DNA of 52,297 bases from Candidatus Gastranaerophilales bacterium (GTDB lineage Bacteria; Cyanobacteriota; Vampirovibrionia; Gastranaerophilales; Gastranaerophilaceae). Both the position numbers and the translations under genes were made by a program. This document shows positions 14,565-28,717 of this stretch, piece by piece. Numbering within the stretch: the stretch's first letter is position 1; each line of letters starts with the position of its first letter. The stretch covers positions 1 to 52,297 of the forward strand of contig CALUPY010000018.1 in NCBI GenBank assembly GCA_944322755.1, read 5' to 3'. The notes beneath the pieces were generated by a model. The model did not search any database. It saw only the letters and a program-made list of their open reading frames with translations, and was not told where the DNA came from.

Positions 14565-15914
14565 ATGATGAGAATATTTGGAATCTGGTTAGCTTTATTT
14601 TTGTTTGTTGCTCTCCCTGTGTGCGGAGAGGAACTAAGTTTTAATGACTTCCTTTCTACTGCACTCACAAACTCATATCAGCTTAGAATTTCTAAAATAA
14701 ATACACAGATTGCAAAGAAAGGCGTCAAAGAAACACGTGCAGGATATCTTCCCACTGTCAGTGCTTTTGCAACAACTGAAAGATACAATGATCTTACTGA
14801 CGGGAAATCTCAATTGACTGCGGTTGGCAACGATATCTTTCTGAACAGAAGCTATTATCAGGATATGGCGGCTGTTGGTTTGTCTTACAATGTTTTTGAT
14901 TTCGGGGTTAGGAAAAAACAGCTTGAAATCGCTAAAGCGGATGACAAGCAAAAAGAAATTGTGCTTTTGAAAGATACAAAAGATTTAAAACTTGAGGCTG
15001 TTGAAATTTATGCTCAGGCTTTAAGTTTATACAAACAGGCAAAAATTAAAAGCAATATGTTGAAACTGGAAAAAGAGCTCCTGGATATACAAAAAAGATT
15101 AAGAACTGCAGGTGAGGCTTCTGAAATTGATGTAGTTGACTCTGAAATTAAGGTTTCAGAACTTAAAAGTGAACTGGATGAGATAAATAATAATCTTGCG
15201 AAAAAACTCACAGAAGTTTCTTATTACACTCAAAAACCTTATGATATGAATAATCTGCAGATTAAAGACTTTCCGCCGGAACCTTAGAATATTACTGCAG
15301 ATGCAGACGGGATTGTGCGTCTGGCTGCAGAGGTTACTACGCTTGTGCCTGAATGCTCTCCAGAGGTTCGGGCTTATGATTTGGAGATATTTAAAAAGAG
15401 CAAAGAGTATGAAATCCAGAAAAAGGCAAACTTTCCAAAGCTCAGGTTTGATACACGATATAATTTGTACGGGTCTGACCCGAGTAATTTATTAAACGGT
15501 ATTGGTGATATTAGTCAAAGAAGTTACAGCATCAGGCTTTCAACTTCTTTTGTTTTATTTGACGGTTTGAAAAATATTAATACAATTGCTAAATCAAAAA
15601 TGGAAGTTGAGAAATTGAAAATTGAAAAAGAAAAACAGATTGCGGAATTAAAGAAAAAATATGCGCAGATTCAGCTTGATTCAAAAAATGCACTTGTCCA
15701 GAGCGAAAATAATTCAAAAACTCTTGCTTTGGTTGACAAAAATTTAGGAATGCTTGAACGACTTAATACGAATGGTATTGTTGACAAATCAAATTGTATA
15801 AAAAAACAGCTCGATTTGCTTGATAAAAAATTAAATCTTGAAGAAAACCAGATAAAAATTTTTACAGCGCATTATAAACTGCAAGTACTAAAACAAGAAG
15901 AGGTTCAATTATAA
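14565..15914 (+). pseudogene. TolC-like outer-membrane efflux protein, split by an in-frame TAG
   Basis: TolC-family proteins form the outer-membrane duct of type I secretion. The N-terminal part (14565-15287) has a signal peptide ending near VCG and the first outer-membrane efflux repeat: YLPTVSAFATTERYND, then GLSYNVFDFGVRKKQL. The C-terminal part (from about 15288) carries the second repeat with FPKLRFDTRYNLYG, STSFVLFDGLKN and long coiled-coil helices. Both parts lie in one frame, 450 codons in all, the normal family length, interrupted only by TAG at 15285-15287. A GTG at 15315 could restart translation but lacks a convincing ribosome site. Recent nonsense mutation is the simplest reading; a split duct, stop readthrough or a sequencing error are alternatives. 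The 3' end abuts the ABC exporter start. Confidence 0.75.
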
Positions 15915-20246: not shown

Positions 20247-20274
20247 TAAAAAAGAGGCTTTAAACAAGCCTCTT
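20247..20274 (-). terminator. Terminator of tRNA-Val (minus strand)
   Basis: AAGAGGCTT (20252-20260) and AAGCCTCTT (20266-20274) form a 9-bp stem. On the minus strand it is followed by a run of T, directly after the tRNA 3' end. Confidence 0.8.
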
Positions 20275-20281
20275 GATTAAA

Positions 20282-20357
20282 TGGTGGGCGATACTGGACT
20301 CGAACCAGCGACCCCCACAATGTCAATGTGATGCGCTACCAACTGCGCCAACCGCCC
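20282..20357 (-). tRNA. tRNA-Val (anticodon GAC)
   Basis: The minus strand folds as a complete cloverleaf of 76 bases with an encoded CCA. The acceptor stem is GGGCGGT/ATCGCCC, the D stem is GCGC/GCGC, the anticodon loop TTGACAT gives anticodon GAC for valine, and the T arm contains the loop TTCGAGT. A terminator follows. Immediately upstream are tandem units made partly of this tRNA's 5' portion. Confidence 0.95.
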
Positions 20358-20590
20358 ATTTTTTTTTAGTCAAAGCCTTCGGCTTTGAGATGCGCTACCA
20401 CCCTCTCACAAAACCTGACATTTAGTCAGCTTTTGTTCGGCAGAGTGCCAACCGCCCATTTTTTTTTAGTCAAAGCCTTCAGCTTTGAGATGCGCTACCA
20501 CCCTCTCACAAAACCTGACATTTAGTCAGCTTTTGTTCGGCAGAGTGCCAACCGCCCATTTTTTTTAGTCAAAGCCTTCGGCTTTAAATA
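20358..20590 (-). repeat. Tandem 100-bp units derived from the 5' part of tRNA-Val
   Basis: The acceptor-strand sequence ACCGCCCA (plus strand) recurs at 20351, 20451 and 20551, an exact 100-base period, giving two full units and one partial unit upstream of the tRNA. On the minus strand each full unit reads TGGGCGGTTGGCA, then an inserted hairpin (ACAAAAGCTGAC pairing with GTCAGGTTTTGT, one mismatch), then TGGTAGCGCATC from the tRNA D arm. A second hairpin TCAAAGCC-GAA-GGCTTTGA and an A-run follow. Only 5' tRNA sequence is present; the anticodon and T arms are absent. One of the few differences between units turns a G-C pair into G-U and keeps the second hairpin. Confidence 0.85.
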
Positions 20591-20672
20591 AATCATACCT
20601 GAAACTTATATATATAGTCAACCTAATATTTTTTGATATGTGTTTAATGTAAAATAAACACAAGGAGATTTT

Positions 20673-27569: not shown

Positions 27570-27600
27570 AAAAAAGGAGTCCCAATAGGACTCCTTTTTT
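27570..27600. terminator. Bidirectional terminator between clpB and the 28717 gene
   Basis: AAAAAAGGAGTCC pairs with GGACTCCTTTTTT around CAATA, with A and T runs on both sides, so it can serve both convergent genes. Confidence 0.9.
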
Positions 27601-28717
27601 ATTTATCACCGTATTCTTTATATATGCGTTTAACTGCCTCAAATCTTTCTGACAGTATTTCAAGAACTGTATTAAGTTTATCTTGTTCATCTTGTTTTTG
27701 TCGTAAATATGAGTTTTTAATATCTACGTACCTGTCATATTCATGCTGTAGTTCTTTGCTTTTTTCTATATTATCCCGGCGTTGATTTTCAAGGTATGTT
27801 CTGTGATAGTAAGTTTGAGAAGGCGGATAGCTTGTATTGTAAGAAGGACCCCATTGTTGTCTTTCTGCCTCCTCTCTCTTGTTTACTTCTTGTATTTCTT
27901 TTTGTATTTTTTCTGTGCGTTCATCAAGAAGATATTTTTCAACTTCTATCTCTTTTAGCCTTTTTTCTGTATCCTGAATATTGCTATTTATAGATTCAAT
28001 GGTATTAGCTATTTTATCTCTTCTTGAAAAGTCATTTTCACTCATAGCAAGCGCTACTTTAACTTCGTGCGCTAATAATTGTCTGTCTATAGTTTTTTTA
28101 CACAATTCTTTGTTTTCATCTATATTTTGCCGGGCATTGAGAGCCTTTTTGAATAAATTAATAATATCTATAGGTCTGCAGTTCTGATAAGAATCGTAGT
28201 TTGCTGTTTCTTTTTTATATTCTTCTAGGAAGTTTTCTGATTTTTTAATTTCCTTTTTCGCAACCAAATTCAGCCTGTTGTTATAAAGCTGGCTAAAATT
28301 TGCATCTTTGCTGTAATCTTTTAAAACTGCTTTTCTTGACTTGAATTTGTGTTCCAGCTGTTCTAACGTTGGCATTTGGGGCTCTTCGTCATACACTACA
28401 TAAGAATGTGTCAATGCAATACTCGAATCAATTTCTTCTTTTGGGTCTGCAATGTAAATCAAGCTGCTGTCACCGTTGCCTATTTTTTGAAATTTATGAT
28501 ACGGATCGTAGACTTTTGATTTGTATACTTCTATGTAATCATCAAGAGAGCTCGCTTTTCCATCTGCAAGTTTTGATACATTCGTATCCAATATTTCCAC
28601 ATAAGTATTTCCGTTTTTATCTTTTTTTATTGGATTTTCTGTTCTTCCCTGAAACGAAGGTTTTGCATTATTTGAAGGTGATGAAGCTCTGTAAATATTG
28701 ACCGGCAAAATTCTCAT
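27599..28717 (-). CDS. Coiled-coil protein of unknown function with N-terminal SFQG motif
   Basis: I do not recognise the family. The 372-residue protein has no signal peptide or transmembrane segment. Residues 1-110 look globular or disordered, with a PSFQG motif near residue 22. Residues about 110-370 are highly charged and helical with several coiled-coil stretches, interrupted by a Tyr/Pro/Gln-rich segment (PSYNTSYPPSQTYYH, about 292-306). An AAGGAG site precedes the ATG. The upstream region contains TTGTAAA (28800-28806) and TTTACAA (28813-28819), an operator-like repeat. It may be a scaffolding or cytoskeletal-type protein, but that is a guess from shape alone. Confidence 0.7.
   Translation of the reverse strand: MRILPVNIYRASSPSNNAKPSFQGRTENPIKKDKNGNTYVEILDTNVSKLADGKASSLDDYIEVYKSKVYDPYHKFQKIGNGDSSLIYIADPKEEIDSSIALTHSYVVYDEEPQMPTLEQLEHKFKSRKAVLKDYSKDANFSQLYNNRLNLVAKKEIKKSENFLEEYKKETANYDSYQNCRPIDIINLFKKALNARQNIDENKELCKKTIDRQLLAHEVKVALAMSENDFSRRDKIANTIESINSNIQDTEKRLKEIEVEKYLLDERTEKIQKEIQEVNKREEAERQQWGPSYNTSYPPSQTYYHRTYLENQRRDNIEKSKELQHEYDRYVDIKNSYLRQKQDEQDKLNTVLEILSERFEAVKRIYKEYGDK

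Follow-up and report, generated by a model that had tools for sequence, protein, structure and literature searches.

What is a tRNA gene doing behind a tandem array made from its own 5' end? Genomes normally keep their tRNA genes cleaner than most other parts. In the stretch of DNA analysed here (the window: 52,297 nucleotides of a Candidatus Gastranaerophilales bacterium, a member of a group living in the gut), an intact tRNA-Val(GAC) gene on the minus strand is preceded by repeated units, each combining pieces of that tRNA with hairpins (Table 1). The question raised by this locus is how such units arise beside a gene that remains intact.

Table 1. Features of the tRNA-Val(GAC) locus, listed along the minus strand in the direction of transcription.
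Feature	Position in window	Strand	Basis or remark
sigma70-like promoter, TTGACT-18-TATGAT	20592..20621	-	10/12 matches; suggestive only; adjoins array start
Partial first unit: second-type hairpin AAAGCCGAAGGCTTT and A-run	20558..20590	-	sequence reading, repeat finder
tRNA-Val nt 1-11, copy 1 (GGGCGGTTGGC)	20547..20557	-	sequence reading, repeat finder
Unit 1, core hairpin (ACTCTGCCGA..GAGAGG)	20502..20546	-	core pattern search, folding
Unit 1, rest of D arm (GTGGTAGCGCATC; tRNA GCAGT missing)	20489..20501	-	sequence; related units obey same rule
Unit 1, second hairpin (TCAAAGCTGAAGGCTTTGA), then A-run 20459-20467	20470..20488	-	sequence, folding
tRNA-Val nt 1-11, copy 2	20447..20457	-	sequence, repeat finder
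Unit 2, core hairpin	20402..20446	-	core pattern search, folding
Unit 2, rest of D arm	20389..20401	-	sequence
Unit 2, second hairpin (TCAAAGCCGAAGGCTTTGA), then A-run 20359-20367	20370..20388	-	sequence, folding
Intact tRNA-Val(GAC)	20282..20357	-	ARAGORN, Rfam
Terminator-like hairpin of tRNA-Val(GAC)	20252..20274	-	sequence scan

The first-pass annotation described two full units and one partial unit at a step of 100 bases, and both repeat searches agree. TRF delimits a period-100 array at positions 20347–20585 (2.4 copies, 97% match, score 464), and the repeat finder places the copies at 20347–20446 and 20447–20546, with a third copy, from 20547 on, that is incomplete and has an A-run shorter by one base. 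The content of the unit is likewise as first described. On the minus strand, the order is ATGGGCGGTTGGC (tRNA nucleotides 1–11 plus two leader bases), a 45-nt core hairpin (ACTCTGCCGAACAAAAGCTGACTAAATGTCAGGTTTTGTGAGAGG) standing in place of the tRNA's GCAGT, then what remains of the D arm, the second hairpin and finally the A-run. The anticodon and T arms are indeed absent from this array, though units at other tRNAs of the same genome retain the 5' strand of the anticodon arm. The C-to-T change in the second hairpin does preserve pairing, as G-U, and a single unit folds far better than its shuffled versions (-39.5 kcal/mol, z -5.2). At or above the gathering threshold, no Rfam family was matched except the tRNA itself.

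Do these units act as RNA? The promoter-like site lies directly before the array, and so the array would be transcribed as part of the pre-tRNA leader; the promoter is a consensus match, of a quality barely above chance (2 sites found versus 1.7 expected). It is this placement that bears on the first-pass suggestion of processed tRNA-fragment-like RNAs. On another reading the units would be selected RNA structures within the leader, for instance tRNA 5'-half decoys controlling folding or processing. The promoter-like sequence, the strong folding of the units, fold-back pieces that complement arms of the tRNA itself, and a motif (TGAAAATTNAATA) just before nucleotide 1 in many tRNAs all speak for such a role. 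We nevertheless consider it quite unlikely: besides the near-chance promoter match, the number of units at tRNA-Val varies from 0 to 4 among relatives (the first-pass annotation had proposed comparing copy number between strains), the hairpin family differs as well, comparable arrays are found at the 3' ends of genes, on the downstream side, and roughly half of the genome's tRNAs carry no units at all.

The leader motif is an observation in its own right. Either TGAAAATTNAATA or TGACAATTNAATA directly precedes nucleotide 1 in about half of the own-genome tRNAs (e.g., L339, L348, L335); others have a plain sigma70-like promoter instead. The motif TTGACAATTAAATA was considered as the right end of the element and discarded, since it is also present before Pro GGG, a tRNA that has no unit.

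The architecture extends well beyond tRNA-Val(GAC). Among the tRNAs within the retrieved genome stretches, 21 of 41 from the own genome and 14 of 24 from a second one, G012, have a truncated self-copy of one end within 400 nt; about half of the own-genome tRNAs thus lack a self-copy. Outgroups from other families gave one of 23 (order level), two of 39 (class level) and one of 23 (phylum level), and mismatched-pair controls 0–4%. The genes affected are those for tRNA-Val, Leu, Pro, Met, initiator Met, Lys, Thr, Ile, Phe, Gln, Glu and Arg, together with tmRNA and 5S. In each layout the copied end is either the 5' end, upstream, or the 3' end, downstream, and the intact gene adjoins; unit length is mostly 85–130 bp. 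In 75 of 170 contexts, an intact gene close by begins with the same sequence that lies to the left of the core; the other 95 have no nearby intact gene start that matches, partly because contigs end there. The core nearest to such a gene usually ends 32–93 nt before it. After the core, a reverse complement of the same gene end (at least 8 nt) follows in 22 of 48 units, versus 21 of 400 controls. Because this architecture is shared by many tRNAs in ~100 independent assemblies, an assembly artefact, one of the first-pass annotation's grounds for doubt, is unlikely.

Further hairpins occupy the same layout in the own genome, at tRNA-Gly(TCC), Val(TAC), Ala(TGC), Ile, Asp and Arg(ACG). One of them, form C (CCTA..hairpin..AGATAAAG), occurs in units of Gly(TCC) (L335), Val(TAC) (L324), Ile (L338), Ala (L336) and Arg (L343); a further family, form B (AAGGACTCCG..GGAGGCAGGCTAAG), is found at L018 and L035 as well as within other repeats.

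A simpler scenario, in which replication slippage duplicates tRNA edges in tandem, the copies decay, and hairpins insert only secondarily into these dispensable pseudo-copies, would account for the near-identity of the tandem units, and fits with half of the tRNAs being affected and with the involvement of several hairpin families. It is, in our judgement, very improbable, given that the truncated copies in the units examined had a hairpin at about the same place and that outgroups with ordinary tRNAs hardly show self-copies. The first-pass suggestion of repeated slippage at an integration scar may hold in its first part, as slippage could explain tandem growth; a scar would lack both an island and an integrase, the latter looked for by eye.

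If the hairpins are not incidental, how widely are they distributed? With the array as query, many partial matches were found in the own genome beyond the array itself, and 14 cores were recovered there with the strict core pattern. In a bacterial collection, matches to the core pattern fell mostly in Candidatus Gastranaerophilales or gut assemblies. The core is present in 41 of 59 genomes of the relatives set. In a phylum-wide sample it occurs in ~125 of 131 genomes of the own family (~95%), with up to 86 copies per genome, copy numbers being lower bounds because many copies lie at contig ends. Outside the family it was found in none of five sister-family genomes, and in at most one genome overall, ~155 other Cyanobacteriota included. 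With the pattern read backwards, this sample gave close to no matches. The search for the unit that the first-pass annotation had called for thus reveals a core that is lineage-wide. A phage origin was rejected for lack of matches to the strict pattern in IMG/VR and to the core in a phage collection. A tRNA-Met unit of the core family also turned up in a contig labelled Muribaculaceae (L057, JAMPCZ010000013.1), which is probably mis-binned.

The 108 distinct cores collected measure 37–47 nt, with two outliers of 56 and 59 nt. Their ends are fixed (ACTCTGCCGA and GAGAGG, in part imposed by the search pattern) and the stem varies on both sides: among 52 aligned 45-nt cores, 94% of pair cells are paired, versus 82% (maximum 85%) in 500 column shuffles. 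All 52 begin with ACTCTG, preceded by variable left flanks, and inverted complementarity between the core ends is limited to CTCT/AGAG. Two candidate identities were discarded. Firstly, an integron attC site, suggested by the palindrome GTTGGC-ACTCT-GCCGAAC, was dropped on the grounds that the left flank varies freely. Secondly, bridge or guide RNA logic found no support: both tRNA pieces flanking the core are sense, and a guide of that kind should have one arm in antisense.

Comparison of sites with and without the core indicates what insertion would do. The sites that cores occupy are of two kinds: truncated gene copies (tRNA, tmRNA and 5S), and two dispersed repeats that also exist without a core. 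In a ~150-bp dispersed repeat of G012, core-less AGACAGC|GCAGCCGCGG corresponds to core-bearing AGACAGC[core]TACGCGG; in a ~215-bp repeat of G001, core-less TTTTAC or TTTTGC followed by GGAAGTGACC (TTTTGCGGAAGTGACC-type) corresponds to TTTTGC[core]GTGACC. A related ~200-nt repeat in G198 carries cores at two different stems, and supplies further core-bearing and core-less sites. Across 64 readable tRNA and tmRNA junctions, the gene nucleotides missing at the core number five (38 junctions), six (23) or four (3). The replaced stretches are GCAGC, GTAGC, GGAATC, GCAGT, GGATTC and similar, mostly GNANY, and the commonest addition at core junctions is TA. No target-site duplication was seen at the core: core-bearing and core-less sites differ by the replacement of ~5 nt. 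The orientation of the core is constant relative to the copied gene end, either after the 5' end (sense) or after the 3' end (antisense). Core-less repeat copies could alternatively have originated by loss of the core, or by amplification of a single core-bearing copy.

Of the three origins offered by the first-pass annotation, small mobile hairpins that target the tRNA provide the best fit, given the dispersal of the core, the existence of counterpart sites that lack it, and its presence in copies of tRNA, tmRNA and 5S. Two amendments are required, in that the tRNA is not the sole target (dispersed structured repeats are used as well) and other hairpin families share the layout with the core. 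The annotation's overall interpretation is thus partly supported.

Several features of the host repeats were recorded alongside. The ~150-nt repeat (TGTCCGAG..GGCGGCGGAGAACTGCTTTT; L309:1949-2106 in G012) occurs with and without the core, and the structured ~200-nt repeat (TGTCTGAG..GTCAGTTGACTATATG; L302:1984-2198 and the G198 loci L409-L437) bears hairpins at several stems and had no Rfam match in L300-L306. At L313:55-96 and L314, a pilin-like reading frame (..AFTMAEILLSLTI) has the core and its flanking repeat at its start.

The explanation to which we give roughly even chances is a lineage-wide system of mobile hairpins, combined with structure-driven partial duplication of tRNA edges in which the intact gene is kept. 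A 37–47 nt hairpin with fixed ends and a covarying stem would insert into the arms of stem-loop DNA, where it would take the place of a short G-N-A-N-Y stretch and in most cases leave TA behind. The fold of the tRNA, or the insertion of the hairpin, would then trigger a template switch during replication or repair. This switch, which we infer from the arrangement of the sequences, would copy the edge of the gene together with the hairpin and a fold-back stretch before returning to the original leader, and through that return a functional gene would survive. Tandem units would arise afterwards, via slippage or unequal recombination. In the window, the process would have happened between the promoter and tRNA-Val, so that the pre-tRNA leader would include the two units. 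Because several other hairpin families occupy the same position in the unit, the core may not be the cause but a mere passenger. A more far-reaching version, advanced here tentatively, is that Gastranaerophilaceae possess a DNA rearrangement system with an enzyme of its own, which would recognise folded arms of tRNA, tmRNA and 5S, exchange GNANY for a hairpin and regenerate the intact gene beside the truncated copy, giving arrays at half of the tRNA genes.

The main rival to template switching is cassette-like, site-specific integration: each unit would be a tiny cassette, a recombinase would use the tRNA end as attachment site, the gene would be restored on one side, and repeated events would build the array. 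Integration at tRNA genes usually leaves a partial copy on one side and the gene intact on the other (PMC9897764). Moreover, unit types (insertion after nucleotide 11, insertion after nucleotide 18) are mixed within single tRNA-Val arrays at L027 and L109, as if added singly, and some pairs of units enclose cargo, which at tRNA-Phe (L115) amounts to 1.64 kb with a 220-aa ORF and near tmRNA (L020) to 1.95 kb with a 179-aa ORF. Integration remains unlikely in our view, since unit length is mostly 85–130 bp, the copied end is broken by a hairpin, and pieces of the gene's own tRNA lie on both sides of that hairpin in each unit. By eye, no integrase was recognised among the ORFs of the window region around the array or among the 56 nearest upstream ORFs at other units, and four cargo or neighbour ORFs tested contain no recombinase domain. 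The truncated tRNA copies at attR sites of integrative elements similarly lie near an intact gene, but there the copies bracket elements of ~9–23 kb or larger (PMC9897764), whereas here hairpin units of ~100 bp accompany half of the tRNAs. An ICE or prophage scar differs too: the unit is 100 bp, there is no kb-sized element, and no integrase was recognised by eye.

Two candidate enzymes were rejected because their presence or absence does not track core copy number. The Y1 transposase (PF01797) gave no matches in the own genome or three congeners (G000–G003), which hold 11–23 core pattern matches. Reverse transcriptase (RT) is missing from G008, G014 and G023, all with many cores, which sets the core apart from retroelement-driven insertion; the own genome has a weak, interrupted RT match only.

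Among known systems, REP/BIME hairpins, which are moved by RAYT (Y1) transposases, are similarly short, dispersed and oriented, with an imperfect stem. The core differs in the absence of a Y1 gene from the own genome and three congeners, and in its foot, ACTCTG rather than a GTAG-type tetranucleotide. Classical bacterial MITEs differ by a target-site duplication, in place of which the core shows replacement of ~5 nt; as to the terminal inverted repeats that MITEs share with an IS, the core ends offer CTCT/AGAG, and no partner IS came to notice. The YPAL/RU-2 elements of Yersinia are also small, non-coding mobile palindromes, and their targets span or adjoin dyad symmetry; they are 168 bp repeats with target duplications of 3–26 bp (PMC2229807), whereas the core is 37–47 nt, replaces 4–6 nt and is bound up with tRNA ends copied beside their own gene. 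Rickettsia palindromic elements are lineage-specific, dispersed palindromes with long stem-loops like the core, but at 105–146 bp they are longer than even its outliers of 56 and 59 nt, and the cited passages mention no arrays of truncated tRNA ends for them (PMC2229807). Repetitive hairpin-forming elements of sponge mitochondria, and the double-hairpin elements referred to in the same paper, likewise invade genomes repeatedly; they are mitochondrial and intergenic, and the cited excerpt mentions neither a replaced motif nor tRNA-edge arrays (PMC2800124). At the level of titles and abstracts, the open-access literature does not describe arrays of self-copied tRNA ends with motif-replacing hairpins in this group.

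These results place half of the tRNA genes of a whole bacterial family beside truncated, hairpin-bearing copies of themselves. The replaced motif and the core-less sites make this a testable case of small DNA hairpin movement and of partial duplication of structured genes. In practical terms, the arrays break short-read assemblies, as the many copies at contig ends attest, and could mislead tRNA annotation.

Two further observations concern genes in the window and near cargo. Firstly, the proteins encoded at window positions 27599-28717 (minus strand), L020:2690-3229 and L115:2187-2849 share a short N-terminal stretch, x-F-x-A/G-K/R (PSFQGR, CFGAKF, PSFNAK), which is possibly a sorting signal; none of these proteins matched a Pfam family above its cut-off. 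Secondly, an outer-membrane-efflux-like gene at window positions 14565-15914 (plus strand) is apparently split into two frames, and adjoins genes for an RTX-like protein, an ABC exporter and an HlyD-like protein.
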